From Apoderus coryli (lineage: Eukaryota; Arthropoda; Insecta; Coleoptera; Attelabidae), in the NCBI GenBank assembly GCA_911728435.2, contig OU452207.1, positions 15,835,682 to 15,899,681 of the forward strand: a stretch of 64,000 bases of DNA. The letters run 5' to 3'. Below the pieces are notes generated by a model that saw only the letters and a list, made by a program, of their open reading frames with translations, made no database searches and was not told the origin of the DNA. This document shows, piece after piece, positions 26 to 49,868 of this stretch; the first letter of the stretch is position 1, and each line of letters opens with the position of its first letter. The position numbers were made by a program, and so were the translations under genes.

Positions 26-2773
26 TTGATCAAAGTTATAATAAACAACGTTGCTGCACGTGCTCTAATTGATACAGGAAGTTCAGATAGTTTCATTGAT
101 TACCATTTTGTTAAAGCAAATAATTTTAAAGTTACTCCTGCTCAAGGCCAAGTTTCGATGGCCTCCACTTTATGTACATCCAGTATTCAAGGAAACTGTA
201 CTCTAAATATACAATTTCTGAACGCCAAACACGAAAATATGAAAGTAGCTGTTCTGCCAAATCTATGTACTGATTTCATTATAGGACATGATATTATGAG
301 GCAACATTCAGCAGTTCATGTTAACTTTGGAGGACCAAAACCTGTTTTAAAAATCTGCTGTTTAGCCCAAGCTACTGTAAAACCACCACTTCTATTTTCA
401 AATCTTACTGAAGATTGTCGTCCGATTGCAACAAAATCTAGGAGACATACTGATGAAGATTTTATTAAACAAGAAATAAAGAATTTGTTGAAAGAGGACA
501 TAATTGAAGAAAGTAATTCACCATGGAGAGCTCAAGTCCTAGTAACACAAAACGAAAATCACAAACGACGGATGGTGATAGATTATTCCCAGACTATAAA
601 TAAATTTACACATCTTGATGCATATCCCGTGCCTAATGTGGAAGCTATGGTCACAAAAATTGCAAAATATAAAATATTTAGCACTATAGACCTTAAAAGT
701 GCCTACCATCTAATACCAATTCAAGAAAATGATAAACAGTACACTGCTTTTGAAGCAGCAGGTAACCTGTATCAGTTTAGAAGAATTCCTTTTGGGGTAA
801 CTAATGGTGTTTCATGCTTCCAAAGGGTAATAAATTCAATAATATCGCAAGAAAATTTAGTAGGAGTATTTGCTTATTTAGATGACGTGACCGTTTGCGG
901 TGAAACACAGTTAAATCATGACAGAAATTTGGAACAATTTATAAAAGCTACTGTAAAATATGGTTTAACACTTAATAAAAAGAAATGTAATTATTCCAAG
1001 AACTCAATAAATTTGCTAGGTTACACTATAGAAAACGGTACTCTTAAACCTGATCAAGATCGTCTTAAACCTCTCCTGAATTTGCCTGCTCCAAACAACG
1101 CACCAAGCCTTAAACGAATAATGGGAATGTTTTCACATTATTCTAAGTGGATTCCGAAGTTCTCACACAAAATAAGAAATCTTACCAATTGTAAAACGTT
1201 TCCAATGCCAGAAAATGTTATCCAAGATTTTGAAAATATAAAAAAGGATATAGCTGAATCACTTTTATGGTCAATTAAAGAAGATGAACTCCTTGTTGTA
1301 GAGACTGATGCCTCAGATTATGCAATAGCAGCTACTTTGACACAGTCAGGCAGACCAGTCGCATTTTTCTCAAGAACTCTGTCTGATTGTGAACGTAAAC
1401 ACTCAGCTATTGAAAAAGAAGCTTGTGCCTGTGTTGAAGCTATTCGTAAATGGAGACATTATCTGATTAATCGACCATTTAGACTTATAACAGATCAAGA
1501 AGCAGTTTCGTTCATGTTTAACACAAAACATTCTAGTAAAATAAAAAACGAGAAGATTATGCGATGGCGTTTAGAACTCTCCTGCTACAATTATGACATT
1601 ATCTATCGCCCAGGTAGTTCTAATCTAGCCGCAGATGCATTATCCAGAATATGTTCAGCAAGTTCTAAATCTAAACTCTATGAATTACACGAATCCTTGT
1701 GTCATCCAGGAATAACAAGGATGTATCATTTTATACGAGTACGAAGTCTTCCATATTCGGTAGATGATGTTAAAAGTATGGTATCTTCATGTCCCATCTG
1801 CGCTGAGCTAAAACCAAAGTTTAATAAAATCAGTAACAGTCATCTAATCAAAGCTACATCGCCATTTGAACGTATTAGTATCGATTTCAAAGGACCTTTA
1901 CCTAGCTGTACCAACAATAAATATCTTCTAACTATTGTTGATGAATTTTCACGTTTTCCTTTTGCGTTCCCTTGCTATGATATGACAGCTGCCACAGTTA
2001 TTCAATGTTTCAACCAATTATTTTCCATATTTGGCATGCCATCTTATGTTCATTCCGATCGGGGACCATCATTCATGTCACATGAACTAATTGATTATTT
2101 ACATTCTCGAGGAATAGCGACAAGTCGAACTACACCCTACAACCCTCAAGGAAATGGACAAGTCGAACGATACAATGGTATAATTTGGAAAACTGTAAAC
2201 CTTGCTTTAAAGACAAAAGGCCTAAAACCTACGCAATGGGAAATTGTTCTACCTGAAGCTTTGTTTTCTATAAGATCATTATTATGTACTGCGACTAACT
2301 GTACACCACATGAACGAATGTTTGCATATCAACGACGCTCAACAAGCGGAATCTCTATACCAACGTGGTTAAAAGAATCCGACATCGTTCTTCTTAAAAA
2401 GCAAAGCAGAAAAAGCAAGTATGATCCATTGGTGGAAGAAGTAGAATTATTAGAAACTAATCCCGAATATGCTTTAATAAGGCATAAGAGCGGTCAAGAA
2501 TCAACAGTTTCTTTAAAACATTTGGCGCCAAGAGGAAATATAAATCTCCTAATCGACGATACTGAAAGTTGTACTTCAGACCGAAACGAGGAAGAGAACA
2601 ATTTATTATCAACAACTGATTTTACTGATAATCTCGACAATACAATTGATTCATCTTCTGAAATATTTTCAACCAATCAAAACACACAAACAGCTCAGGC
2701 ATCTGAACCTGTTCGAAAGTCTGAAAGAATACGAAAACCACCAAAGTACCTAACGGAGTACGTTCCAAATTAA
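26..2773 (+). CDS. pol: Ty3/gypsy Pol polyprotein (5' part outside window)
   Basis: Retrotransposon polyprotein that would supply protease, reverse transcriptase, RNase H and integrase. Domains in order: aspartic protease with DTGSSDSFID near residue 17; RT with YLDD at residues 284-287; RNase H with ETDASDYAIA; integrase with an HHCC finger near residues 550-595 and a DDE core (IDFKGPL, HSDRGPSF, GNGQVERYNG). The 915-residue frame is uninterrupted, which is rare in this window. The listed start is only the first in-frame ATG; the reading frame enters from the left edge, so gag and the 5' LTR lie outside. It is followed at once by a polypurine tract and an LTR, as expected for the 3' end of a gypsy element. 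No chromodomain and no env are seen. Confidence 0.93.
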   Translation: MIKVIINNVAARALIDTGSSDSFIDYHFVKANNFKVTPAQGQVSMASTLCTSSIQGNCTLNIQFLNAKHENMKVAVLPNLCTDFIIGHDIMRQHSAVHVNFGGPKPVLKICCLAQATVKPPLLFSNLTEDCRPIATKSRRHTDEDFIKQEIKNLLKEDIIEESNSPWRAQVLVTQNENHKRRMVIDYSQTINKFTHLDAYPVPNVEAMVTKIAKYKIFSTIDLKSAYHLIPIQENDKQYTAFEAAGNLYQFRRIPFGVTNGVSCFQRVINSIISQENLVGVFAYLDDVTVCGETQLNHDRNLEQFIKATVKYGLTLNKKKCNYSKNSINLLGYTIENGTLKPDQDRLKPLLNLPAPNNAPSLKRIMGMFSHYSKWIPKFSHKIRNLTNCKTFPMPENVIQDFENIKKDIAESLLWSIKEDELLVVETDASDYAIAATLTQSGRPVAFFSRTLSDCERKHSAIEKEACACVEAIRKWRHYLINRPFRLITDQEAVSFMFNTKHSSKIKNEKIMRWRLELSCYNYDIIYRPGSSNLAADALSRICSASSKSKLYELHESLCHPGITRMYHFIRVRSLPYSVDDVKSMVSSCPICAELKPKFNKISNSHLIKATSPFERISIDFKGPLPSCTNNKYLLTIVDEFSRFPFAFPCYDMTAATVIQCFNQLFSIFGMPSYVHSDRGPSFMSHELIDYLHSRGIATSRTTPYNPQGNGQVERYNGIIWKTVNLALKTKGLKPTQWEIVLPEALFSIRSLLCTATNCTPHERMFAYQRRSTSGISIPTWLKESDIVLLKKQSRKSKYDPLVEEVELLETNPEYALIRHKSGQESTVSLKHLAPRGNINLLIDDTESCTSDRNEEENNLLSTTDFTDNLDNTIDSSSEIFSTNQNTQTAQASEPVRKSERIRKPPKYLTEYVPN

Positions 2774-2784: not shown

Positions 2785-2830
2785 TGTCATATAATTTATT
2801 ATAATACTGTATTTACAATATCTTTATTAG

Positions 2831-3101
2831 GAATGGGCTTGTTTAACAAAACAAGACTTAAAATCCGAGAGTTTGTCTGTCAACCACTATACTTTCACCA
2901 GACGGCCGTTTCGTCGATCCACGACTCATCAGTGGTGATCGGTCAGTAGTTGACAGCCAAACTCTCGTAAATAATGTGGTATATACCACAAACGGTACAG
3001 AGATGTAAAAGGATGTGTTTGGCGACATCTAGTTTTATTGTTGGTAGTACGCCGAGTGAACAACAGTTCCTATATCGACCGCCTGGGAGGTCTCTGACCC
3101 C
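2831..3101 (-). mobile_element. 271 bp hammerhead-bearing insertion (retrozyme-like)
   Basis: Short insertion in the gypsy LTR, flanked by perfect 13 bp direct repeats ATATCTTTATTAG (2818-2830 and 3102-3114), so it is a discrete transposed unit. It has no open frame of note. Its minus strand holds a hammerhead ribozyme closed by a long outer stem. Size, TSD and ribozyme fit small non-autonomous retroelements of the retrozyme or Penelope-derived type known in animals. Its sequence does not match the Penelope element at 45357-48843, so I infer a separate family. Confidence 0.75.
2866..2967 (-). ncRNA. Hammerhead ribozyme, type I, complete core
   Basis: On the minus strand: stem I strand CACCA (2933-2937), CTGATGA (2926-2932), stem II GTCG/CGAC with a 5 nt loop, GAAA (2909-2912), stem III ACGG/CCGT (2902-2909), cleavage triplet GTC ending at 2901, then stem I partner TGGTG (2896-2900). 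All invariant core positions are present. Stem III is a self-complementary octamer with no loop, so two copies could pair as a dimer. Stem I is extended by a second pairing between 2866-2884 and 2949-2967. Predicted to self-cleave between 2901 and 2900. Confidence 0.88.
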
Positions 3102-4558
3102 ATATCTTTATTAGTTTGACATGTACCAGTTTAGTTTTACATACTTGTTTAGTTTTACATACTTGTCAATAACTGTTAGAATTTTTATTGTGCTATGTTT
3201 TTCGTTTATTAAAGCCTATAAATCTGAAGGCGAGTATTATTACAGTAAGGTTTTGAGCAACCTGGTATATTATTAATTTTTTGATATATTTTAATTCTTG
3301 AATTGAAACTTGGAAAGGATAATTTGCTGGAGATCTTTCTTAATTAAAGATTGTAACATCATAATTTGATAAGTTTGTATACAAGATCTCAGGGGTGTTT
3401 CCCTTTCTAAGTAATTTATACATAGTTATTCGAGGTTCTGCTTTCCGTGGTAGCAAATTAATCATTATTCTCTATAAAAAGATCATAATATAATATTGTT
3501 CATTTTGAAAGTATTAACTTTCCTTTATTAATTTTTATATACATTGAAACGTACTTTCCATCAAGTGTTGGAGTTAAATATTTTGTTTTTCATTGTTTGA
3601 ATTTAATCTAATTTTTATTTGACACAGTGACCTAGTTCACTTAAATTTAATTCTTAAAGTTTCTTTTTTGAACAGGATTAATTTGGGTATCTCCTTCAGA
3701 GACAGACTTTTAATTTTTGTGATTTAAATCTTGACTTTAACAACGATTTATTGTTAAACAAATACATTGAAGAACTCGAGTGATTATCCAAAGCCAAAGT
3801 GAATTTTTACTAATTTCTGTTGGTGTTTCCTACTCGGTACATGCATCCTCACCTACCTGATGACATGCCAATAAATACTGAGGCTTGAAGAAATCTACAA
3901 CTGCCAGATTAAACCAGTCTAATCAACCAAGCAGATACTAACTAAGTTGGTGTGTACACTGGACGGTGTTGGAGAAAAAGTACAACGATAGAATTCATTA
4001 CAGTATACAGATAAGAAAAATTTAATCTTTATCTAATTATACTTTGAGCTGGATACTTGCTTCAGAGAGTTATAAAATATTTACATAATGTAAAATACCA
4101 AATAATCTAGTCAAGATTTTTAATTTAATTTATATCAACAATTTTATATTGATTTTTAATATTTTGATTTGTTTTTTATTATAAGTATTGATTTTACTTA
4201 TCGTAGTTTGATTTCATCATACACAGCTTAATGAGTGATCTAATCTAATCTAGTAGTGTTTGGACTTCTGATTTGTTTAGGGAGCACGGCATCATTTTAT
4301 TTTAGTTACCCTATCTTTATTCAGTACAATTGCCTTGAATATAACAAGGAAAGTTTTTGTATATTTTTGTACTCAAAAATATTCTGGCGCCCTTTGCTGA
4401 TCCGTGATCACTTTGGAATTCCATTCGCTGGAGTCTGTTAGGAACTGGGTCGAACCCTACTGACTTTGTTAGCCTGGTATATGTGATAGCGAACTAACAG
4501 ATTCTGTTCTCTTCTGATACAAATAAACTCACGACTGAAACGTCTTTAATACCGCTAC

Positions 4559-9707: not shown

Positions 9708-12700
9708 TTAATTTTATCTCAACTACGTCTAGAACATCTTAATGAGGAAGAAGCTGAATTAATAATAAATCTTTGTTTAGAATTTCCAAATTTATTTTAT
9801 TTTGAAGGAGATAATTTAACTTTTACAAATAAAATAAAACACACAATTGATACCAATAATGCTAAACCAATTTATACAAAAAGTTATCGTTATCCTCAAG
9901 TACATAAACAAGAAGTTAAGGAACAAGTTTCAAAAATGTTAAATCAAAATATTATTCAACCCTCAATATCTCCATGGTCTTCTCCAGTATGGGTAGTCCC
10001 TAAAAAATTAGATGCGTCAGGAAAACAAAAATGGAGAGTAGTAATTGATTATAGAAAATTAAATGAAGTTACTGTAGATGATAAATATCCTTTACCAAAG
10101 ATCAATGATTTACTTGATCAATTAGGCAGATGTCAATATTTTACAACATTAGATTTAGCCTCAGGGTTTCATCAAATAGAAATTGATACTTCAGATATTT
10201 CTAAAACTGCGTTTTCAGTTGAAAATGGTCATTTCGAATTTAAGCGAATGCCATTCGGTCTTAAAAATGCTCCATCAACTTTTCAAAGAGTTATGGATCA
10301 TATTTTAGTTGGAATTCAAAATGAAAAATGTTTAGTTTATATGGACGATATAATAATTTATTCACCTACAATTCATGAACATATTGCAAGTTTAAAAGAA
10401 GTTTTTAAAAGATTACAAAATGCAAATTTTAAAATACAACCTGATAAGTGTGAATTTCTCAGAAAGGAAGTAGCTTATTTAGGTCATTTAGTAACTAAAG
10501 ATGGTGTAAAACCAGATCCAAAGAAAATTATTGCATTAAAGAATTTTCCTATTCCGAAAAATTCAAAAGATATAAAATCTTTCTTAGGACTAGCAGGTTA
10601 TTATCGACGGTTCATACCAGATTTTGCAAAAACTTCGAAACCATTAACTAGACTTTTACAAAAAGATGTTTCATTTATATTTAATAAAGAATGTCAAGAA
10701 GCCTTCAATCTTCTTAAAAATTATTTAACTTCAGATCCAATATTAAGGTATCCTAATTTTGAAGAACCTTTTATTTTAACTACAGATGCAAGTGCTTTTG
10801 CAATTGGCTCAGTTTTATCTCAAGGTCCTATTGGTAGAGATCTTCCCATTGCTTATGCTTCAAGAACTCTTTGTGAAGCAGAAACTAAGTATAGTGTTAT
10901 TGAAAGAGAATTATTATCTATTGTTTGGTCAGTTAAAAACTTTCGTCCTTATCTTTATGGTAGGAAATTTAATCTAGTAACCGATCATCGACCATTGACA
11001 TGGTTATTTTCAATCAAAGATCCCGGTAGCAGATTAGCTAGATGGAGGTTAAAATTAGAGGAATACGATTATGAAATAATCTATAAACCTGGTAAAATTA
11101 ATAAGAATGCAGATGCTCTTTCCAGAATTAAAATTAATCATTTGAAAAATGCTGTTATTTTTCATAATAAACTTAATCAACCCGGTACATCAAAGCAAGA
11201 TGATACAGCAGAAATTGAAAGTGAAAATGAAAATGAAACCACAGCTGACACAAGTTCTAGTGACATTGAAACAATTACTAATGAATTTTATCGTTTTATA
11301 GAATTATACAAAACTAAATCATTAATTGACTACACGAAAATTAGATTTACAAATAAACAATTATTAGATAAAGATCATAAAAATATTATTACCTTTTTTC
11401 AACAAGATAGACTTCAAGATTTACATAATACAATAATAGAAGATATTTTTGAAGAAGAAGCAGATTTTCGTCATGATAAAATAAATATTCTTTCAAGCAA
11501 AACAGTAAATAAACGAAGTTATTATATTATTCCACTACCATTTCATTTTAAAGAAGCTGTTGAAAGACTTTTCGTCACTTTATACAAATGTTCTAATGAT
11601 ATAAACGAATCAAAAACATATTATGTTGAAAATAATATTGAACTCCCAATATTGGAAATGTTTTCTTTTATTTGTGCAGAAAAAGATTTAAAATTAGTAA
11701 TTTGTCAAAATATTATTATAACTCCTGATAATGATGAAATTCAAGTAATAATAGATAATTACCATTCAGGAAAAGCAAATCTACACAGAGGAATCAATGA
11801 AACAATTCGTAGAATTAAAGAAAAATATGACTGGAATAGATTAACTAAAGATGTCGAAATGTTTATTAAAAAATGTGAAATTTGTCATAAAACTAAAATT
11901 TATAGGCAAAATTTAAAAAATCGTTTGGTTATTACTGAAACTCCGAAAACTCCTTTTGAAAGAATCAATATTGATATTTTAGAAGTTCCAACCAAAAACT
12001 ATGTTTTAACAATTAGAGACGAACTAACAAAATTTACACAAGCTTATGCTTTACAAAATAAATCAGCTATTTCAGTTGCTAGTACTATACTCATATTTTT
12101 CCAACATTACGGTACACCCTTACGAATACATTGCGATGGAGGAAAAGAATTTAATAATAAAATATTTAATGATTTATGTTTATTATATGATATTAAATTA
12201 ACATTTTCTAGCGTTGCTCATCCACAATCAAATGGATCTCTTGAAAGGTTTCACGCAACATTATTAGAAATGATTAGAATAAATAAAGTAGAAAATCCTA
12301 ATGATCACCCACTAACTATTTTACCTTTTGCTTGTATATGTTATAATAATTCTGTAAATCAAACACATGGATTCACTCCATATGAGTTAATATTTGGTCA
12401 TACTTCAGGACGACCACCCGAAACTCTTTATAATGAAAAAGAATTAATTTCTAAGTATATTTTAGATTTAAATAATAAGATTAAGCATTTTTATAATATG
12501 GCAAGGCAAAGAACTAATCTTAAGAAAGAAAAAGCCAAGGAATACTTTGATAAAAATATAAATAAATCTAATGATAATTTTAAGGTAAGAGACAAAGTAT
12601 ATGTCAAAGAATCTCAAATAAAAAATAAACTAGCAAATAAATTTAATGGTCCTTTTGATATTTTAAAAATATTTGATAACAATTCAGCATTAATTTACAA

Positions 12701-12773
12701 TCCTATTTCTGATAATACTTCACGAATAAATTTTGATCGTTTAAAACTATTTGAAGAAAGAGAAGTGAAATAA
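9708..12773 (+). CDS. pol: Errantivirus Pol: RT, RNase H, integrase
   Basis: Open from about 9708; the first ATG is at 9936 but homologous sequence (LSQLRLEHLNEEEAEL) starts before it, so the true product is read from upstream. Counting from 9936: RT with YMDD at residues 135-138, RNase H with TTDASAFAIGS near residue 285, integrase HHCC finger around residues 610-655, DDE core (INIDILE, HCDGGKEF, SNGSLERFH). The C-terminus has the KFNGPFDI segment typical of gypsy integrases. It is uninterrupted over more than 1000 codons although gag, pro and env are broken. Confidence 0.93.
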   Translation, partial: LILSQLRLEHLNEEEAELIINLCLEFPNLFYFEGDNLTFTNKIKHTIDTNNAKPIYTKSYRYPQVHKQEVKEQVSKMLNQNIIQPSISPWSSPVWVVPKKLDASGKQKWRVVIDYRKLNEVTVDDKYPLPKINDLLDQLGRCQYFTTLDLASGFHQIEIDTSDISKTAFSVENGHFEFKRMPFGLKNAPSTFQRVMDHILVGIQNEKCLVYMDDIIIYSPTIHEHIASLKEVFKRLQNANFKIQPDKCEFLRKEVAYLGHLVTKDGVKPDPKKIIALKNFPIPKNSKDIKSFLGLAGYYRRFIPDFAKTSKPLTRLLQKDVSFIFNKECQEAFNLLKNYLTSDPILRYPNFEEPFILTTDASAFAIGSVLSQGPIGRDLPIAYASRTLCEAETKYSVIERELLSIVWSVKNFRPYLYGRKFNLVTDHRPLTWLFSIKDPGSRLARWRLKLEEYDYEIIYKPGKINKNADALSRIKINHLKNAVIFHNKLNQPGTSKQDDTAEIESENENETTADTSSSDIETITNEFYRFIELYKTKSLIDYTKIRFTNKQLLDKDHKNIITFFQQDRLQDLHNTIIEDIFEEEADFRHDKINILSSKTVNKRSYYIIPLPFHFKEAVERLFVTLYKCSNDINESKTYYVENNIELPILEMFSFICAEKDLKLVICQNIIITPDNDEIQVIIDNYHSGKANLHRGINETIRRIKEKYDWNRLTKDVEMFIKKCEICHKTKIYRQNLKNRLVITETPKTPFERINIDILEVPTKNYVLTIRDELTKFTQAYALQNKSAISVASTILIFFQHYGTPLRIHCDGGKEFNNKIFNDLCLLYDIKLTFSSVAHPQSNGSLERFHATLLEMIRINKVENPNDHPLTILPFACICYNNSVNQTHGFTPYELIFGHTSGRPPETLYNEKELISKYILDLNNKIKHFYNMARQRTNLKKEKAKEYFDKNINKSNDNFKVRDKVYVKESQIKNKLANKFNGPFDILKIFDNNSALIYNPISDNTSRINFDRLKLFEEREVK

Positions 12774-12800
12774 TTTGATTTTCTGATAAAATATTATTAA

Positions 12801-14105
12801 TTACAGGTAGCGTTTGAAAATAATAATAATATTTTGAATAGTCTGTATAATTATTTAAATCCAGTAAATGATAGAATGTTAAGTTTTCTTTCAGAAGTAA
12901 AATCTCATATTGATTTATTAACTCAGGTATCTCAAAGTATTAACTCAAAATTTCAAGAATTAGCTTTTGATATTAATAATCGATATAAAAGAGGACTTAT
13001 AAACGGAGCAGGTTCAGTTTGGGAATATTTAACAGGTAATCTTGATGCCTCCGATGGAGAATATTATAATAATTGTATTAATAAAATAAATAGAGATGAA
13101 CATGAATTAGAAGAACTATTTAAAAAACAAATATCAGTAACTACTTCCGTAATAAAAAACTTCAATGAAACTTTAAGAAAATTACAAGTCGATGAGAAAA
13201 CTTTTAATGAAGATATCGTAAATATAGAACAATCAATTTATGATATTTCAGATAATTTAAAATGGTTTAATTCAAAATTAGAAGTTATTGAAATTACACA
13301 GAAGTTAACAGAATCATATTCATATATTGAAAATATTTTAAATGATATGTTAAATTCAATAACATTTGCAAGATTAAATATCATTCATACATCAATTATA
13401 ACACCAAAAGACTTAATTGAAAATTTAAAATCAATATCTCAATCCTTAAAAAAAAATAATTTACCTTTACCTATTTCAACAAATTCAATTGCTTCTTATC
13501 TTAATATAATCGAATTAAAAGCTTTTCAAACAGATTCAAAAATAATATTTATTCTAGAAATACCATTAGTAGAACCGGAACTATATACAATATTTCGATT
13601 ATTCCCAATTCCTATTTATGATAATCAAACTGGTCTACATCACATTCTATCAACAAATCAAAAATATATAGCTAAAAGTGAAGAAAATTATGTTTTTATT
13701 CCTATAAATGATTTAAGTAAATGTAAAGAATTATATTTTAAAACTATGCTTTGTAGAAATATTTATCATTACCCTATTGATAATAATGCTATATGTGAAG
13801 TTCAATTATTGAGAGGTTTAGTTAAACTTCCAGAAAGTTGTCAAATATCTTTTGTTTTTGCTAAAGAATATAAAATTCATTTATTAGAAACAAATAAATG
13901 GTTAATTGCAGTAAGTGAACAACTTCCAGTTAATATTAAATGTGTTACAAAAGAAGCTTATTCTGAAATAATTAAAACTAATTCAATTTTAACTCTACAA
14001 CCAGATTGTTATGCTTTTGTAGGCACAACAAAAATTCAAGCAAGTAAAACTAAAAATTCTGATTTTCTTTATAAACCTCATTCAGTAATAATAATATTAC
14101 TATAA
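12801..14105 (+). pseudogene. env: Errantivirus env, baculovirus-F-like, main part
   Basis: The frame opens with TTACAG|GTAG at 12801-12810 and has no good ATG, matching a splice acceptor: errantivirus env is made from a spliced mRNA whose 5' exon supplies the start and signal. A furin-type site RYKR is followed by a glycine-rich fusion-peptide-like segment GLINGAGSVWEYLTGNLD near residue 50, then a coiled-coil-like helical region and scattered Cys. This order is that of baculovirus F / insect errantivirus Env. The frame stops before any membrane anchor; the anchor lies in the next frame, so this copy is broken. Confidence 0.82.
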
Positions 14106-29084: not shown

Positions 29085-32000
29085 ACGAGTCTAGTGACTC
29101 ATAGGATATATGTTAGCGATAGCTCGCCAATAGCTAGAGCACCATATAGAGTACCTGTGGCTCAAAAGAAGATTTTGAAGGATCAAATAGAAGAGATGTT
29201 AAAGGATGGAATTATACGACCATCAGTATCGCCGTGGAGCGCACCAGTTGTTCTCGTGGAAAAGAAAAGCCTAGACGGGCAAAAGAACTTTAGATTTTGC
29301 ATCGATTTTAGGGCTCTAAACAAAGTAACGAAGAAGGACTATTTTCCAATCCCAAACATACATGATACCCTAGATTCTTTAGGAGGAGCAGAATTATTCA
29401 CTACTCTAGATATGACCAAAGGGTATTGGCAAGTAGAAGTAGATGCCCAAGATAGAGAGAAAACAGCATTTTCGGTACCTTGGGGACATTACGAGTGTAA
29501 CCGTATGCCATTTGGGTTGGTTAATGCTCCAGCAACGTGGCAAAGACTTATGATGTGCGTACTTTCAAACTTAGTTGGAAATCATTGCTATGTATACCTT
29601 GACGATATTATTATTTCTCAAGAAATAATATGGACGAGCACGTAATGAAATTAAGGGCTGTATTCGAGAAGATAAAGGAAGCAGGACTGACCTTAAACCT
29701 GGAAAAGTGTAAATTTGCAACACAAGAGACGTCCTATTTAGGACATATTATTTCAGGCAAACGAGTAAGTCCTGATCCTAAGAAAATAGAAGTAATAAAA
29801 AACTACCCAGTTCCGAAGACAGTGACGGAGATAAGATCCTTTTTGGGCTTGGTAGGTTATTATCGACGTTTTATTGGAAATTTCGCTGCATATTCATCAG
29901 TACTTACGCAGTTAACTAAGAAGAACGAAAAATTCATTTGGAATGAACACTGTAGCGAATCTTTCGATTATCTACGTAATTGTTGAAGTATCCGGACATG
30001 AATAAAACTTTTTATTTATCAACTGACGCTTCAGGATATGCAATAGGAGCTATATTAAGTCAAGTCTACGATGGTCAAGAACTCCAGGTGGCTTATGCAA
30101 GTCGCCAGTTGAACAAAGCGGAGAAGAACTATTGTACTATCGAAAGAGAATGTTTAGCCTTGATATGGGGAGTTAAACAATATCGTAATTACCTTTGGGG
30201 TAACAACTTTGTAGTATACACCGATCACCAGCCTTTGAAGTGGCTTATGGGAGTTAAAGACCCTAGTAACAGATTAATGAGATGGTCACTGGCATTGACT
30301 GAATATAATTTCACAATAGAATACAGACCAGGAAAGAAACATGGTAATGTGGATGCTTTATCACGGATTAAACCAATTAGATGCATCAATGTATCGGACG
30401 ACTTCGAACCGATTTGGAGTCGCGATGAAGTAAGAAGGATGCAAAAGGGTGACATGAAAATCCAGGATTTAACAAAGAACATCTTAAGAGGGAAGGACCC
30501 TAAATATTACCTGGATATAGATGGTTTAGTATATAGAGAAGGAGATGGCGATAGAAACGGAGATAAGCTGGTAGTGCCAAGAGGTCTGATACCTTCGATA
30601 TTACGGATTTATCATGACCTACCATTTTCAGGACACATGGGGGCAGATAAGACATATTCAAGGATAGCTAAAAAGTTCTTTTGGAAAGGTATGTTGGAAG
30701 ACATAAGAGCCTATGTTAACGCATGTGAGTCATGCGCTAAAAGGAAAACATCCAGTCATAGGAAACCAGCTCCGTTACAGACTATAGCAATCCCGAAGAG
30801 ACCGTTTGAAAGGATCGCTATAGACATCGTTGGACCTTTACCTGTCACGAACCAAGGTAATAAGTATATTCTAACTGTACAGGATGCATTGACTAGATAT
30901 GTGGAGGCGTTTCCGATTCCGGATCAGAAGAGTGAAACTGTTGCGAAGGCTTTCGTAACAGGTATTATATTACGTCACGGTACACCAGGACAACTATTGA
31001 CTGATTTGGGAGCGAATTTCACATCTAAGTTAATGGAACAGCTGTGCAAGATCTTAAATATTAAGCACCTAAAAACAACGGCTTATAGGCCCCAAACAAA
31101 CGGAGCTCTAGAAAGGTTCCATAGAACGCTGAAGGACTTATTATCCCATTACATACAACGAGATCAAAGAGATTGGGATACATGGATACCCTATGCACTC
31201 GCCGCTTATGTCTCTGTTTCCCATAACACAACAGGAGAAAGCCCATTTTTCTTGCTATACGGCCGTGATATTGAATTTCCATATGATGAGCTTTACACAC
31301 CACTTAGAGTTAGATATGACACCGATAATAATTACGTTGCTGAGTTTATACAAAGAATGAAGATTGCACATAGAAACGCAATTGCCACAATTGAAAGGAA
31401 CACAGAAAGGACACATAAACAATTTAACAAAAAGACAGAGAGCCCTAATTTTAAAGTTGGAGATAAAGTATACCTTTTTGACCCAGCTGATCATGTAGGT
31501 ATTAGCAGGAAGCTAATGAAGAGATGGAAAGGACCCTACAGAGTTCTAGAAATAAAAGATGTAAATGCTACAATAAAAGAAGTACATGGCACGTCAAAAC
31601 AAAAGGTACATGTGAACAGACTAAAACAATGTTTAGCTATGGACAACCCGCGCGAACAACTAGGTAATATTCCATCGAAATATAAAAGGATCCAAAAACA
31701 AAATCTAGACTGTTCTGACGATGAAGATATTGTCGTGGAAGAGCAGACATCAACGACAAGAGCGGAGAACGTGGAGCAAAGCTCAGCATTGACGCACACA
31801 GGCGGTAACGACCCTGCCCTTATGACCCCTCCTAACCTAGCTCTAGAACCAAGCATTACAGCGCCGACTGACGACACACCCAACAACAGCACATCCAACA
31901 ACAGCAACGGCACGCCAATAGAAGGCAACGTCTCGCCCATTAACGACATTACCACGTTGAGTGAAGTTTCAGCAACGCCTGAGGACGACCCAGTCATCTT

Positions 32001-32145
32001 CAACAACCTCACGACCACAGTCCCCCAGGAAGGTACGTCCACGGACAAAACAACCGAGATCCAACCTCAAACACACACAGGTGTTTGGACGAGAAGCAAA
32101 GGACCAGTTCAAGACGAACCTTGGATTCGCTCGGGACGATTTTAA
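29085..32145 (+). pseudogene. pol: Gypsy Pol of the glycoprotein-bearing element
   Basis: Starts near THRIYVSDSSPIARAPYRVP, the usual beginning of gypsy RT. RT YLDD is at about 29594-29605, RNase H with STDASGYAIGA at 30019, integrase finger HDLPFSGHMGADKT...CESCAKRK, DDE core (IDIVGPL, TDLGANFTS, TNGALERFH). Frameshifts lie near 29620 and 29985. The C-terminal 150 residues are Thr/Asn/Pro-rich and disordered-looking. Confidence 0.92.
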
Positions 32146-32239
32146 GCACGAAAGAGATCCGGTGAGCACCAGAGTATCGTGTGTAAATAAGGCCTGATAT
32201 TTTTGAATTTTTGTTTAAGGTTTCAACCAAGGCGTCACG

Positions 32240-34194
32240 ATGCGTGTGCTTTTCGCAACATTATTATGGCTCACCTGGTTCATGGTAAAAGGAGACATTG
32301 TGGCATATGACTGTGGAGACAAGGCAACCGAATTGACGAAGGTTTCACTGCTGTCCATCAAACCGTGCATCGATCTGAGAAACTCCACCGACACGCAGTA
32401 CCGTAATATCCAACTCGTCCAAAAACGCCAGTACGTCGCCGTGCAGATTTATTCTTGCTTGATCAAGGTGCAACAGTTCATCCAACACTGTGGCATGCAT
32501 TCCCACATGAGTTCAGTAGCAGGAGGATTTGGGAAGTATGTTCAACACATCGGACACGACGAATGCCTAAAAGCCCACAGGTTTAGGCACGTCAACTTGA
32601 GGGGAATTGGTGCAGGTGTTATTTCACAATTAACACTCAACGGTACCACCGAGGTTTCTTCCACCTTACAAGGCCATATTGGACTAGATGGCAAATGTGA
32701 GGGTGTACGTTTTTCTGTTGGAGAGGTGCATTATAGCAACGTTGTTGTATCGGCAGCCATCACGATCACATTGATCGACTATATGCCCACCGCTGATGTT
32801 GAACGCAACATTGTACATTTACGTTCTGGTACAGTGTGTACATATAACGATGGTTTTTGTTTCGATGACGTCACAGGAGAAACGACATGGCAAGCCACCT
32901 AGCCAACCTATGTACTGCTAGCGGAGTTGATGTCCTTTACGAAGGAAACGCCACGCTATTGGTGCTTCGGAAGTCACCGCCAACGAAATATGTTATGGTC
33001 GAAACCGAGGATTCGGTGTTTGCACTGAAACTAATCAAACCAGAAGAACTCTGTCATCAAAGAGCTTGGCAAACTGAACAGAATCGGCTGCTAGTCGTTT
33101 TCGAGGACGCAGCTGGATTCTACTATACCAAAGGAAATAGATTGCCTCAGAACACCGATATGATGGCACATGTTTTAAGCAAGCTCTTATACTTAGAGAT
33201 AGCAGTTAAACGACAGATGGCAGATGTGATCTACGACGCAATCCTCAAGCGGTGCCAACTGAGAGAAAAGATCCTACAGAACAGATTAGCGAAACAGTCA
33301 CCAGACGCCATTGGTAATCTGGTGAAGGAAGCTACTGGTTATGCTAGCCGAGTGATGGGAGAAGTTCTTTATATTGCAAAATGTAGAGCAGTTATTGTGG
33401 AGTACCGTCGTACTTCACAATGCTATCAGGAACTTCCCGTCACGTATCAGAACATGTCGCTGTTCCGATCATCAACCACTCACATCATAGTAGAGCACGG
33501 CACGGAAGTTGAATGTAACCCTCTCCTTCCAACTTCGTTTCGAATTGAGAACACCTGGGTTGAACTTAACCCAGACTTAAGAAGGGGAGAAGACGCAATC
33601 GAGTTGGACGCGAACGACGAGGAAGACAAATTAAGCATGAAAGGTATATCACCTATAAGTGCAAACGGTGTGTATACTAAAGAGGATCTGGAAAACTTCA
33701 GACACACACTCCTCTACCCAGGAACAAAGAAAGCCGTCACAAACCAGATAGCAAGACGAATTGTGGGAGTTGGGGGTCCAGATCCATACCACATGCAAAA
33801 TTTGTTTACACAGAGCGAGTTCCGTTCATTAGCTCGTTCTGCCGCGGAAGAAGTATGGGGATTCCTGTCACAAATGGGAAGCTTATTTTCCATTTGCGGA
33901 TTCCTGTACACTGTATTTTGCGGTTTTAGTTACATCGCCGGGGTAATCGCAAACTATTTTACCCTTAAGGACGCGACAAAGGGTCATCCGAATAGAAGAA
34001 AATATCTACTGGGTAGTTTATGGCACAACCTAGCCCATAGATATTTATACCAACTACATAAGGAGAGATTAGAGGTTAAGGACGACAAACTAGGCGAACT
34101 AGAGACAATTAAAGTGGATACGCCTACAGTGTATCCAATTTTAGACGCAAAACCCTCTGCTCCATGCAATGACCCTAATTGTCCCGTCAAATAG
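32240..34194 (+). pseudogene. env: Chuvirus-like glycoprotein used as env, one frameshift
   Basis: Two frames (32240-32902 and 32887-34194) overlap by 16 bp and read as one protein broken by a frameshift. The first starts with a signal peptide (MRVLFATLLWLTWFMVKG), followed by YDCG and Cys-rich ectodomain with HSHMSS. The second has further Cys pairs, an ELPV and W-V-E-L-N-P motif, and a membrane segment near residues 331-356, then a 75-residue tail. Motif order (YDC, HSH, C-ELPV, WVxLNP) resembles glycoproteins of chuviruses (Jingchuvirales). It follows pol by about 95 bp, so it occupies the env position. Family assignment is by eye. Confidence 0.72.
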
Positions 34195-38998: not shown

Positions 38999-39011
38999 TT
39001 AAAATTAATAA

Positions 39012-39398
39012 TAAATAAATTGTTGTGTGAAATTGCAATCAATCAAGTGCGTATACTGTTGTCGTGGAGAAATTTTTGGTTTTTCGATGATTTATAAAAA
39101 GAAAAATATCATAAAGCTTACATTAGAAATGATGTGAGTTTTTGAGTTCCTTAGTTTTAAATGTTTAATAACGATACTTAATTTAACAATAACTTTTTGT
39201 TTTTTCGCACAATGAGTTAATAAATAAAATTCCCAAAATAATATGTACTAAGTTAAATAACATAGCTTTTCGTCAGATTCTCTTATAACCACTGATGATG
39301 CAGCTCGGAGCTGCGAAACATGTATGGTGACAAATGTAATTTGTTGAGGATATTTATTAAATTTATTGTGTGGAGGTCGACTTTTATTTCAAGAATAT
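39012..39398 (+). mobile_element. Short Penelope-type (solo pLTR) insertion in the LINE
   Basis: Flanked by TTAAAATTAATAA at 38999-39011 and 39399-39411. Removing it restores the LINE frame. No frame of its own. It carries a hammerhead, and the sequence after it (TTGTGTGGAGGTCGACTTTTATTTCAA) resembles the end of the Penelope element at 45357-48843 (TTGTGGAGTAGACATCG then TTTTATTCAAA). I infer a solo Penelope terminal repeat. Confidence 0.8.
39288..39328 (+). ncRNA. Hammerhead ribozyme, Penelope type
   Basis: Stem I ACCA (39288-39291) with TGGT (39325-39328); CTGATGA (39292-39298); an extra T; stem II GCAGCT/AGCTGC around CGG; GAAA (39315-39318); a minimal stem III AC/GT; cleavage triplet GTA ending at 39324. 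The extra T at the stem II junction also occurs in the Penelope copy at 45457-45505. Very short stem III is typical of Penelope hammerheads, which may act as dimers. Confidence 0.85.
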
Positions 39399-39411
39399 TT
39401 AAAATTAATAA

Positions 39412-44916: not shown

Positions 44917-45394
44917 CCATTTTGAATTAGCGGGTATTATTTACATTCAGAAAGAATACTAATTTTATAGCTCAATCCAAATGAATACCAATATGCTATT
45001 CAAATTGTTACGGGTTGGATTCAAGCCTTACGAGCAGTTTCAATTAAAGAAGAACAAACAAAGAATATCAACTTTATTAATCTGTATTAAAGTAATGTAA
45101 AATTACTCACTTTTTATAATTCTGGATCACTGCCGGTCACCCACTTTGTATTTAAAAGCAAAACAATAATTAAATGACCCTTCTGTCAACAACATAACTA
45201 AACTTTATTTGAAATATAAAACGCAAAAGTTTGGGCTCAAAACAGCTAATTTAATAAAGAAAATTAATAACAATAGGAAATAAATATGTATAAATAAAAA
45301 AAGAATAAAACAATTAAACGAGAATGAAAATTTAGAAGAAAATCTTAGTCATTAATTTTCTGAAGTAATCCATCTATCGAGGAGTGAATGTTAC

Positions 45395-46414
45395 TATTTG
45401 AATAAAACGATGTCTACTCCACAAAATGATATTTATATATACGTTGAAATTCTTATATTAGTTGCCAGACATGTTTCGGACTACACGTCCATCATCAGTG
45501 GCTAAGGAACCTTGTATAATGTAGTTAAATGTGAGGGTTACACTTGATACGAAATTAACATAGAGATTTTATATGGATTTTAGATTTAAACGTTTATACA
45601 ATATCTGCAAAATAATCACTTAATTAGGATGTGATGTAATATTATACTTGTAGGATTCTTACCATTTTGTTGGAAAATTGTTGTTAAATTAATAAAATAA
45701 AAATAAAAATGAAGTTAAATTATTGAACATTTGTAGATCATTTCTACTTGTATCATTAGTTTTTTCTTTTTTCTCATCTTTGAGGAAACAAGTTAAATTT
45801 CAATTGAACTGGTCAGAGCCCACCAGTACAGTCGTTTAAGGATCACAAATAAGAAAAACAAAATGTCGAGTGGTGAGGATGAAGATAGTTATATATATAT
45901 TAAGGTTTCAGCCAAAGCTACACATTTGGTGTTTGAGGTGAGGTGAGGAAGTCAAATGAGGTGAGTAGATGAGGGTTGTTTAATTTATAATGTATTAAGT
46001 GAGTGAATTTTGGTAAGATGTTGAGAGAAGTTATTTGTTAATTGTAAAGTCCATGATTTTAATGTCTTTTATATTTGTTATCTAAGGGTGTATTAATCTT
46101 AATGTTCGATCAAATGTAGTGGTGTCTGTGGATTAATGACTCTATTGTTTGTGTCTAAGAAGAAGTGAAATGTTATGTTATAACCTAACATTAGCTGATT
46201 TATTTATATTTGTAGGTTATGGGGCTTATTTATGGGAGGCTTGGGGTGGTGGGTTCTATTGAGTTGAATTTAAGGGAATTGAAGAACGGGAGGCAGTCGA
46301 ATTCGAGTTGGTCATTTACGCAAGTGTACTTGGTGTTCTTTTTATATGAATTAATTTCCATGGCTTCCAAGACATTTAGCATTGTGCTTTTAAGACAAGA
46401 ATGGGGCATTTCAG
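45395..46414 (+). repeat. Left arm of ~1 kb inverted repeat
   Basis: Pairs with 47891-48840. Both arms contain the last 60 codons of the Penelope gene (EINSYKKNTKYTCVNDQLEF), the 3' UTR and ACTCCACAAAATGAT near the outer end. The arms differ by scattered substitutions and by a ~75 bp block (45431-45505) holding the hammerhead, absent from the right arm. Confidence 0.9.
45457..45505 (-). ncRNA. Hammerhead ribozyme of the Penelope element
   Basis: On the element strand: stem I GCCA/TGGC (45499-45502, 45464-45467) with an outer TTA/TAA pairing across a 3 nt bulge; CTGATGA (45492-45498); extra T at 45491; stem II GGAC/GTCC; GAAA (45474-45477); minimal stem III AC/GT; cleavage after GTC at 45468. 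Hammerheads are known in Penelope terminal repeats. It lies about 730 nt after the end of the coding region, in sense orientation. Confidence 0.88.
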
Positions 46415-46830
46415 CATTTTGATCGATGGAAAAGGAGTGGTGTTCATTATAGATGTGGTTGGCAAAGGCGGAGTTACTGTTTATTTCTTCAGCGTTTTCT
46501 TGAGTGGCCTTTTCAATGATTTTATTGTGTTCCTTAATACGAGTTCCAAAGTTGCGACCAGTTTGACCAATGTAGATGGTATTGCAGTTTATGGTGCCAC
46601 ATTTCAATAAGTACACTCCGGATTTTTGAAGCCAGTTGACTGGGGATTTGCTGTTATCAAGGTAATTGCCAATGGTATTTCTAGTTCTGAAGCAGATGTT
46701 AATGTTGTTGTTATTAAATAGTTTTTTAATGGAATGCATAAATGGACCAGTGTATGTGATGGGGTGGAAGCTCTTGTTTGTAGAATTTTCGAAAGTGGTA
46801 AGTCCATTAAACGTGTACTTTATTAGGTGT
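46230..46830 (-). pseudogene. Penelope C-terminal GIY-YIG endonuclease
   Basis: GVYLLKCGTINCNTIYIGQTGRN gives the GIY-YIG core, followed by GTRIKEHNK and a downstream HIYNEHHSF-type segment. This nuclease nicks the target for insertion. The frame 46230-46739 is intact from within, but is separated from RT by a frameshift near 46830. Confidence 0.9.
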
Positions 46831-47910
46831 TTATAATATATTTTATTGATATTGGATAGTGGTTTACTTTAGCTATATGGTAAATTATTGACAATTCATT
46901 ATTGAAGTCTTCATGTGACATAGGCACGTGGAAAAGTCTGTGGAAGTAAGATTCGAATGTTGAGAATTTGTGTGCGGACGGATGGTTGGAGTGGTAGTCG
47001 ATAATAGCATCTGACGAAGTGGGTTTATGATATATTGAGAAGGTAAGTTGGTTGTTATGTCTATGTATGGTTAAGTCAAGATACGCTAATGAGTTATTTG
47101 TTTCAGATTCATGTGTGAATTGAATTCGTTCATGTATGGAGTTCATGAAGTTAAGCGTTTGGACAGTGGTTCCTATGTATATGGCGAAGATGTCATCCAC
47201 GTATCTTTTTAAGCAAATGAATTTTGGACCATGAATGTTATTTGATAGAATAGTTTGGTCTTTTTTTGACATGAAGATTTCAGCTAGCAGGGACGAGATG
47301 CCATTTCCCATGCTCAAGCCATCCATTTGTTTATAATATTTATTGTTAAAGTGAAAAAAAGTTTTGTTCGAGATTGATTTTCAGTAAATTGTGTACGGCA
47401 TTGATATCTGACATGTTTAAGTTGGAGTTATTTATTAGCAAATCTTTAACTATATCTAAAGTCTCATTGACAGGGACACTACTATATAGGTTTTTGACAT
47501 CAAAGTATATGAGTTGTGCGTTCTCAGGACATTGAATATGTTTAATTTTGCTTATTAAATCGATGAAGTTTTTTACTGAATGTATGGATGTGAAATTGGT
47601 TTTATCTCTGAGGATGTAGTTTAGCCAGTTAGAGAGTTTTGATGCTGGGGTTCCTGAGAAACAGGCAATGGGACGAGCGGGAATCTCTCTTTTATGTATC
47701 TTAAGGAGTGCACGTAATTCGGGTGTTTTAATGTTCATGCATGAAAGTTTGAATTTGTTGGTGCCTAGGGATTCGAGTGTATTTTTGTGGGAGGTAAGGG
47801 TCTTGTTGAGTTTTGTGTGGTTTTGTTTGGTGGGGTTGTTTGGGATTTCACGGAAATCAGGATTATTGAGGAAATCTTCAAGTTTCCTAACTGAAATGCT
47901 CCATTCTTGT
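46823..47910 (-). pseudogene. Penelope reverse transcriptase
   Basis: From about 47910: SVRKLEDFLNNPDF, then LRALLKIHKREIPARPIACF, YFDVKNLYSSVP and, after a frameshift in a T-run near 47360, MDGLSMGNGISSLLAEIFM and LKRYVDDIFAIY (catalytic YVDD). The frame extends upstream to 48089, but those first 60 codons are antisense of the C-terminus in the inverted arm and are not real protein. Confidence 0.9.
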
Positions 47911-48840
47911 CTTAAAAGCACAATGCTAAATGTCTTGGAAGCCATGGAAATTAATTCATATAAAAAGAACACCAAGTACACTTGCGTAAATGACCAACTC
48001 GAATTCGACTGCCTCCCGTTCTTCAATTCCCTTAAATTCAACTCAATAGAACCCACCACCCCAAGCCTCCCATAAATAAGCCCCATCACCTACAAATATA
48101 AATAAATCAGCAAATGTTAGGTTATAACATAACATTTCACTTCTTCTTAGACACAAGCAATAGAGTCATTAATCCACAGACACCACTACATTTGATCGAA
48201 CATTAAGATTAATACACCCTTAGATAACAAATATAAAAGACATTAAAATCATGGACTTTACAATTAACAAATAACTTCTCTCAACATCTTACCAAAATTC
48301 ACTCACTTAATACATTATAAATTAAACAACCCTCATCTATTCACCTCATTTGACTTCCTCACCTCACCTCAAACACCAAATGTGTAGCTTTGGCTGAAAC
48401 CTTAATATATATATATATATAACTATCTTCATCCTCACCACTCGACATTTTGTTTTTCTTATTTGTGATCCTTAAACGACTGTACTGGTGGGCTCTTACC
48501 AGTTCAATTGAAATTTAACTTGTTTCCTCAAAGATGAGAAAAAAGAAAAAACTAATGATACAAGTAGAAATGATCTACAAATGTTCAATAATTTAACTTC
48601 ATTTTTATTTTCATTTTATTAATTTAACAACAATTTTCCAACAAAATGGTAAGAATCCTACAAGTATAATAATATTACATCCTAATTAAGTGATTATTTT
48701 GCAGATATTGTATAAACGTTTAAATCTAAAATCCATATAAAATCTCTATGTTAATTTCGTATGAAGTGTAACCCTCACATTTAACTACATTATACAAGGT
48801 TCCCAAAAGATCATTTTGTGGAGTAGACGTCGTTTTATTC
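47891..48840 (-). repeat. Right arm of ~1 kb inverted repeat
   Basis: Inverted copy of 45395-46414. On the plus strand its coding part reads the same last 60 residues as the Penelope gene (47896-48075). It lacks the hammerhead block. Confidence 0.9.
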
Positions 48841-49868
48841 AAATTAGTCATTAATGTACAACTAAAAAAATAGGAAAATTAATATAATTACGAATAGTTA
48901 TATTAATTCCTATACGAAACTTTAATTACAATTGAAACTGAATTTATTTCAATTACTAAAAGAAACAACTTAATCTTTATAAAAATTGATTGAAAACAAA
49001 AAGGCTTTCAATTAAAAGAATTAACAAAGAACTTACTGAACTTGAACTTCGATTATTATTAAGAAACTTTATACAATTAGAAATCACATCTAGACTCTAC
49101 CAAGGCTAAAATGAATCTAAATTCGAAAATCCGATTGTCTTTCCAAAACACTTAACATACATGAGAAGTAGGTACCTAGATTGAAAATAGCCAATCAGAA
49201 AAAAGGCCATTTTGCAATATACCCCTATAAAGATACATCTACAGGGTGAGAGTTCAGGAATAAGATACATTTTTATGTCGACTTTAATAACGGTTGTTGA
49301 TACTTAGGTATCTTATGTTGGAGTTCGTTCAAAAGATTAACTAGTCACTACCATTTGTAAAGCAAGAAACAATCCGATTTTATAATGACTTGTCAATCTC
49401 CCGAATCAGCGACTGGACAAAAACCCATTGTTTTTTTATTCGCCCTTTATATACTATTTGATATCGGAAACCGTGACACCCTCCAACTACTAGCTTCTGT
49501 ATATAATAATAAAAGTCCGACATTTAATTTGCATGAAGGCGTTTTGAGAATCTTGAATGACCACTCTGTATTTAAAACATCTGGTTATCTTTTCTAATAT
49601 ATGCTTTTATCTTTAGACTAACTCATAAACAAACTCTCGAATTCTCGATTAGAAAAAGGTCGTTCTTTTAGGTAACAATTCTTTTAGGAACATTTGTTAA
49701 AAGCCCAAGATAATAAATTTATTACTTACAGATCTTGTATGATATTTACACAAAGATTAGACTTCTAGACTTGTTAGGTATACAACTATAAAAATAAGAG
49801 AAAATATCCAAAATTACCCAAATAGATATACAGGGTAGGACAAAAGTAAATTCTATTGCCCGTGTGTC

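Follow-up and report, generated by a model that had tools for sequence, protein, structure and literature searches.

A young retrozyme family in the beetle Apoderus coryli with insertions resembling those of Penelope-like elements

The 64,000-nucleotide stretch of Apoderus coryli DNA analysed here (the window) contains, near its left end, a short segment that carries a hammerhead ribozyme motif and lies between two copies of a 13-mer within the LTR of a Gypsy element, which raises the questions of what kind of element this is and what machinery put it there. An earlier note had described it as a 271 bp element flanked by an exact 13 bp target duplication. The features at the site are listed below, with positions in the repeated unit numbered u1–u332 from the cleavage site in the RNA sense.

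26 to 2773, plus strand: Gypsy protease, reverse transcriptase, RNase H and integrase frame, upstream of the interrupted LTR
2785 to 3244, plus strand: 3′ LTR of the Gypsy element, split by the retrozyme, with a GTAAG duplication outside both LTRs
2818 to 2830, no strand: left target-site duplication, 13 bp ATATCTTTATTAG, an exact repeat, single in the 5′ LTR and in a further LTR copy
2831 to 3101, minus strand: retrozyme insertion, a single arm of 271 bp, running from u133 to u332 and then from u1 to u70, across the hammerhead cleavage junction
3102 to 3114, no strand: right target-site duplication, 13 bp ATATCTTTATTAG, an exact repeat

The empty form of this site can be seen in the Gypsy element's own 5′ LTR (L048) and in a second copy (L049), both uninterrupted and with the 13-mer once, so that 271 bp and one 13-mer have been inserted, and the target duplication is confirmed. 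A genome search with positions 2700–2830 gave 31 matches, and the LTR copies of L051–L060, in the sequences printed, are likewise uninterrupted at the site, with small base differences. GTAAG is the 5-bp duplication of the Gypsy element itself and borders its two LTRs on their outer sides. Although the insertion is 271 bp long, this is not the length of the whole unit, which is 332 nt in tandem copies; the window copy is 0.8 lap of the unit, without u71–u132, and its left edge is an end of the A type described below (the RNA 3′ side). There is no simple-sequence or poly-A tail at its duplication, and a plasmid search returned no match. An 18-bp tandem duplication lies elsewhere in the interrupted 3′ LTR (3124–3159) and is missing from the 5′ LTR of the same element. 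The window also contains another Gypsy element with a Baculo_F-like envelope (9936–14105), and a Gypsy-like pol frame followed by a frame matching Pfam Monjiviricetes_fusion (29980–34194; E 1.2e-88).

The ribozyme and its flanking helix occupy the following positions:

2895 to 2938, minus strand: type I hammerhead ribozyme (RF00163, 33.8 bits), core at 2932–2901, predicted cleavage between 2901 and 2900
2866 to 2884, minus strand: extended stem I, first arm of an inverted repeat, pairing at 18 of 19 positions with 2949–2967
2949 to 2967, minus strand: extended stem I, partner arm; in subfamily F2 the letters differ and its two helices still pair

The RNA of the hammerhead corresponds to the minus strand, the strand having been left unspecified in the earlier note. 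The RF00163 match at 2938–2895 is complete over model positions 1–45 of 45 with a perfect core, and has an E value of 1.1e-6 for 600 bp under permissive filters; because it falls 0.2 bits below the gathering score of 34, a default Rfam scan of the window listed nothing. The earlier description of a complete hammerhead with a perfect core is therefore correct, as are the 5′ end at 2900 (the predicted 5′-OH end, at the next base after the core) and the long pairing that closes stem I. Stem III, ACGGCCGT, had been singled out as loop-less and self-complementary; it is present but not special, since this is the usual RF00163 form (consensus ACGcgCGU).

The extended stem I is found in both subfamilies of the element (F1 and F2, see below), with pairing of 9/9 plus 8/8 in F1 and of 11/11 plus 9/9, in different letters, in F2. 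A column-wise comparison of F1 with F2 gives 21 common pairs with one changed on both sides, and this signal is not clean, owing to an offset between the helices once F1 and F2 are aligned, so the claim for stem I rests on each subfamily's separate helices. A viral-contig pattern scan (five contigs) found the same hammerhead-like motif in L002–L005, but the motifs of L001–L005 were rejected as relatives, having a longer stem III-like part and matching the unit over the motif only.

The window insertion is one copy of a large, young retrozyme family, as judged from its abundance and uniformity in the genome assembly. An exact 20-nt piece of the hammerhead core occurs 2355 times (1168 + 1187) and its reversed control not once, bearing out the expectation of further copies. 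The first genome search with the window copy produced 157 matches from the 40 scored of 1154 candidates, and the full-length matches among those listed are 98–100% identical, many of them in tandem at a period of 332. Across 40 loci the cleavage-to-cleavage interval is 332, 333 or 334 in 51, 8 and 2 of 61 cases, respectively (all 11 intervals in L037 are 332), and the 32-nt core is kept in 113 of 115 full hammerhead regions, so the core boxes do not vary at random. Head-to-tail copies are likewise present, in arms of up to 12.3 laps. A second subfamily, F2, has a unit of 336 nt and is approximately 67% identical to F1 over 336 columns (from one copy, L041); F1 units are 332–334 nt, and GC content is 0.449 in F1 and 0.438 in F2.

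Which class does the family belong to? The unit has the properties used to recognize metazoan non-LTR retrozymes: a type I hammerhead, a length within 170–400 nt, GC below 50%, tandem copies in the genome and target duplications longer than 4 bp. The longest stop-to-stop run in the repeated unit is 81 codons in any frame, and the reverse transcriptase plus GIY-YIG reading frame expected of a Penelope-like element was not found in it. Of the two classes raised earlier, retrozyme agrees on every one of these points, whereas SINE-like is not supported: there is no tRNA gene, no A box (a single B-box-like match has two mismatches) and no simple tail at the window duplication. By these characters the window insertion is a non-LTR retrozyme of the published kind, non-autonomous and non-coding.

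The organization of the insertions bears on how they arose. We mapped 40 insertions, corresponding to the 42 loci L006–L047 that are the best BLAST hits to the window copy, minus the duplicates L023 and L025. Several features stand out. First, 24 of the 40 consist of two inverted arms (twins) and the other 16 of a single arm. Second, both outer ends of a twin are RNA 3′ sides, and a single arm has one such end. Third, these RNA-3′ ends sit at one of two fixed positions in the unit, A (u~75) or B (u~230), and each of the 24 twins combines an A end with a B end (15 with B on the left and 9 with A on the left); in the single arms the end is A in 13/16 and B in 3/16. Fourth, the best direct repeat is 12–16 bp long in 31 of the 40, and a repeat of this length abuts both edges in 27 (20 exact), including 22/24 twins. 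The 13 insertions that do not have an abutting repeat of this size are L011–L015, L017, L018, L020, L027, L034, L038, L046 and L047, and in some of these the best repeat extends into the arm. Finally, the centre position varies between twins, and the arms are joined there with an overlap of at least 1 nt in 15/24, bluntly in 2 and with filler in 7.

Short homologies between target and template are evident at both fixed ends, with a mean of 3.0 nt at A (null 1.2) and 1.7 nt at B (null 0.5), each exceeding all of 2000 swaps of duplications among loci, although these sizes are approximate because the duplication edge is ambiguous there. The two sites show a weak tendency to lie near each other in the predicted fold, A–B proximity ranking 26 of 332 rotations in F1 and 63 of 336 in F2. 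A hairpin next to the B site was considered as a conserved feature and rejected; it looks kept, but is absent from the circular minimum-energy folds. Two pairs of loci deserve comment: L012 and L013 have the same arm between mirrored flanks, possibly through duplication of a single event, and the twins L031 and L032 share target flanks but differ in arm lengths and centres, and so look like independent insertions at one repeat site.

Because the 40 mapped insertions are the best hits to the window copy, further places were taken by position, from the first 100 listed hammerhead places in position order, all on C1. These fall into 71 clusters, of which 17 contain at least two hammerheads and 13 have both strands, and their opposite-strand neighbours are (−,+) in 13 cases and (+,−) in none. 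Twenty places were fetched, comprising 12 of the 13 two-strand clusters (the 13th is L047) and 8 one-hammerhead places. Fully typed twins were obtained at 12 of the 20, all with one A and one B end and 12–16-bp repeats, both in F1 (L062, L064, L065, L067, L071 and L078) and in F2 (L066, L068, L069, L070, L073 and L079), where the end sites on its own unit are A = v~80 and B = v~237. One A plus one B is thus found in 36/36 typed twins (24 best-hit and 12 position-picked), a figure that covers typed twins only, since the C1 sample is independent of similarity but 12 of its 20 places were picked for having both strands. Four places (L063, L072, L075 and L076) resisted end typing; L074 and L077 are A/B by eye but ragged, and are outside the count; L080 and L081 each consist of one arm with an A end.

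The comparison for this twin architecture comes from the Penelope-like copies of the genome, and the window itself contains one:

45357 to 48843, minus strand: Penelope-like element copy with two inverted arms, architecture as in the retrozyme twins, candidate helper type
45357 to 45395, minus strand: Penelope 'tail', about 39 bases, found on the left arm and not on the right

Over the stretch compared, its inverted arms are identical at 784 of 801 positions, and a 12-bp duplication, TTAGTCATTAAT, is present at 45345–45356 and 48844–48855. The left arm contains 71 bases (45435–45505), with the minimal hammerhead of the Penelope copy, that are missing from the right arm. Another minimal Penelope-type hammerhead (core at 39292, plus strand) lies in a 387-bp insert at 39012–39398 within a Jockey-like LINE frame; by eye, the insert is flanked by the 13-mer TTAAAATTAATAA at 38999–39011 and 39399–39411, and the LINE frame seems to resume past it.

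The coding content of the Penelope-like copies is as follows. The broken Penelope frames of the window have no Pfam match at 1e-3, with a weak RVT_1 in one at E 10, and no GIY-YIG domain is reported for the local frames even at this relaxed threshold. One of the window frames matches a full-length frame of 877 residues in L061 (93% identity over 210 residues), in which RVT_1 is detected at 2.9e-9. A protein search with the L061 frame gave 11 relatives, most with RVT_1, three with PF01541, which we take to be the GIY-YIG domain, and one a beetle sequence; a PDB search gave no useful match. Candidate copies are numerous (2667 first-look candidates for a 212-residue frame), and among 150 places listed, opposite-strand neighbours within 10 kb are (−,+) in 26 cases and (+,−) in none. 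Twin Penelope loci were examined in the window and in five fetched copies (L082–L086, of which L082 was left untyped), and by eye the tail is on one arm only in 5/5 typed twins (window, L083–L086). The window copy, L083 and, by eye, L086 have duplications of 12 bp, and L084 has one of about 15; that of L085, which is flanked by a run of A, is ambiguous.

BLAST found no similarity between the retrozyme and the window's Penelope copy, in agreement with the earlier note, and the retrozyme unit has chance-level matches only to the Penelope relative L061, so that sequence comparison with these copies points to no helper. In anatomy, however, the retrozyme copies match insertion by Penelope-type retrotransposons, as far as can be read from their ends, arms and duplications.

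We therefore consider it probable that a protein of the Penelope type uses both strands of the target as primers on the retrozyme RNA, starting at two internal sites, and that this RNA is probably a circle. Genomic retrozyme copies would first be transcribed, and the RNA would be cut to unit length by the type I hammerhead and closed by a host ligase, by analogy with published retrozymes. A Penelope-type protein with reverse transcriptase and GIY-YIG domains would then cut both strands of an AT-rich target at points about 12 nt apart, as the target duplications suggest. Both freed 3′ ends would prime reverse transcription, with A (u~75) serving one strand and B (u~230) the other, in accordance with the outer ends. 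Each cDNA would run inward, often for several laps, to give the head-to-tail units observed, and the arms would join where they meet, mostly via short homology, to generate an inverted twin array. In one-arm copies, such as that in the window, only one cDNA would have persisted.

The nature of the template can be addressed from the arms. The same-strand interval is constant (336, 336, 333) in the three listed C1 clusters that have more than one such interval, and across both arms in two of them. Within an insertion the laps have most of their variants in common: u122A>G is on both arms of L029 and is private to it among the 40, and u170insT is on both arms of L007, L008 and L009. These last three have additional changes on one arm only, and some further changes in them and in L029 are limited to one arm or lap. 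The lap structure and common variants favour a circular template, though a linear multimer left uncut would yield laps as well, and it is plausible that the retrozyme yields circular RNA. Insertion could still be of the Penelope type with, as template, a multimeric linear RNA transcribed from a pre-existing array, which would likewise yield several laps and one unit length per insertion, and two twins (L021 and L024) have arms or laps that differ in some variants. We regard this as unlikely: the longest arm, 12.3 laps and 4085 bp in L037, would require a multimer with about 12 uncut, intact hammerheads, and 7 of the 16 single arms (L014–L018, L030 and L042) end within 21 nt of their own start after approximately one, two or three whole laps.

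It is less likely still that a LINE mobilizes the retrozyme and that the inverted arms represent LINE twin priming (5′ inversion). In LINE twin priming the second cDNA starts at varied internal points, and the fixed outer ends, one A and one B in every one of the 36 typed twins, count against it. The Penelope copies of this genome obey a one-tail rule too, and the window copy has no poly-A or simple-repeat end. The target duplications of about 12–16 bp and the short homology at the joins do agree with LINE insertion as well, and PMC4918200 compares 15-bp duplications of Nematostella repeats with those of LINEs. As to a satellite-like repeat that spreads through DNA recombination or as rolling-circle DNA, its arms inverted by later rearrangement, the tandem 332-bp periods are as it predicts, but it is scarcely credible given dispersed insertions with their own target duplications (an abutting 12–16-mer in 27/40), the known empty site of the window copy, and fixed outer ends with variable centres.

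Returning to priming of both strands by a Penelope-type protein, we lean slightly towards a broader proposal in which retrozymes are Penelope parasites, their RNA circle having two separate start sites that work on the same principle as the Penelope tail, so that two reverse transcriptases would travel each 332-nt circle and produce a palindromic multi-lap array. If so, the tandem 'satellite' look of animal hammerhead repeats and the inverted ends of Penelope copies would reflect one two-strand, two-site mechanism. In PMC11167929, an anole Penelope protein cleaves and extends both strands in vitro, using two internal RNA start sites that bound the 'tail', alike between strands and without homology to the target. 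Several observations count against the probable reading that a Penelope-type protein does the priming. First, A and B are separated by approximately 155 nt in the retrozyme, against a Penelope tail of approximately 39 nt. Second, each retrozyme arm uses a different site with short target homology, unlike the Penelope starts in vitro. Further points are that sequence comparison singles out no helper, that GIY-YIG shows up in three of the 11 protein relatives but not in the local Penelope frames, and that 13 of the 40 insertions are without an abutting 12–16-bp repeat.

As to the enzyme that spreads animal retrozymes, the Penelope link was proposed earlier on indirect evidence. PMC7229834 (Cervera and de la Pena 2020) proposes Penelope elements as retrozyme helpers, and it, PMC7761336 and PMC11722881 put forward Penelope or LINE candidates from co-occurrence, shared hammerheads and tandem copies. 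The insertion anatomy described here points to Penelope-type rather than LINE-type insertion, and a family this recent (from the identity of the listed full-length matches) is a test case for prediction with purified protein. It may also help to explain the inverted ends of Penelope copies.

Comparison with known systems places the family as follows. Like the SINE-like Schistosoma SMalpha and W36 repeats (PMC8490949, PMC4918200), it has a type I hammerhead in a short repeat forming tandem arrays, but the schistosome repeats include a full tRNA and no tRNA-like part is present here. With Penelope-like elements (PMC3846280, PMC11167929) it shares outward RNA 3′ ends, a tail on one arm, short target duplications, AT-rich targets, an internal start of reverse transcription and a hammerhead, and the rotifer copies of PMC3846280 similarly have inverted pLTRs, a tail on one of them and target duplications. 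It differs in that Penelope encodes a reverse transcriptase, usually with GIY-YIG, whereas the retrozyme has no long frame; in having no sequence in common between the retrozyme and L061 or the window's Penelope copy; and in the spacing of the start sites noted above. The metazoan non-LTR retrozymes of PMC7229834, which include insects, agree in the type I hammerhead, 170–400 nt unit, GC below 50%, tandem copies, target duplications above 4 bp, lack of protein and Penelope elements alongside, but their repeats are tandem ('inverted' and 'head-to-head' are absent from the main text), in contrast to the inverted twin arms with two fixed starts in 24/40 insertions here. Full-text searches, mainly of openly accessible literature, brought up no description of this family and no account of inverted, two-start retrozyme insertions. 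Retrozymes with these general features are thus known, and the inverted twin, two-start form that their insertions take in A. coryli appears to be new.
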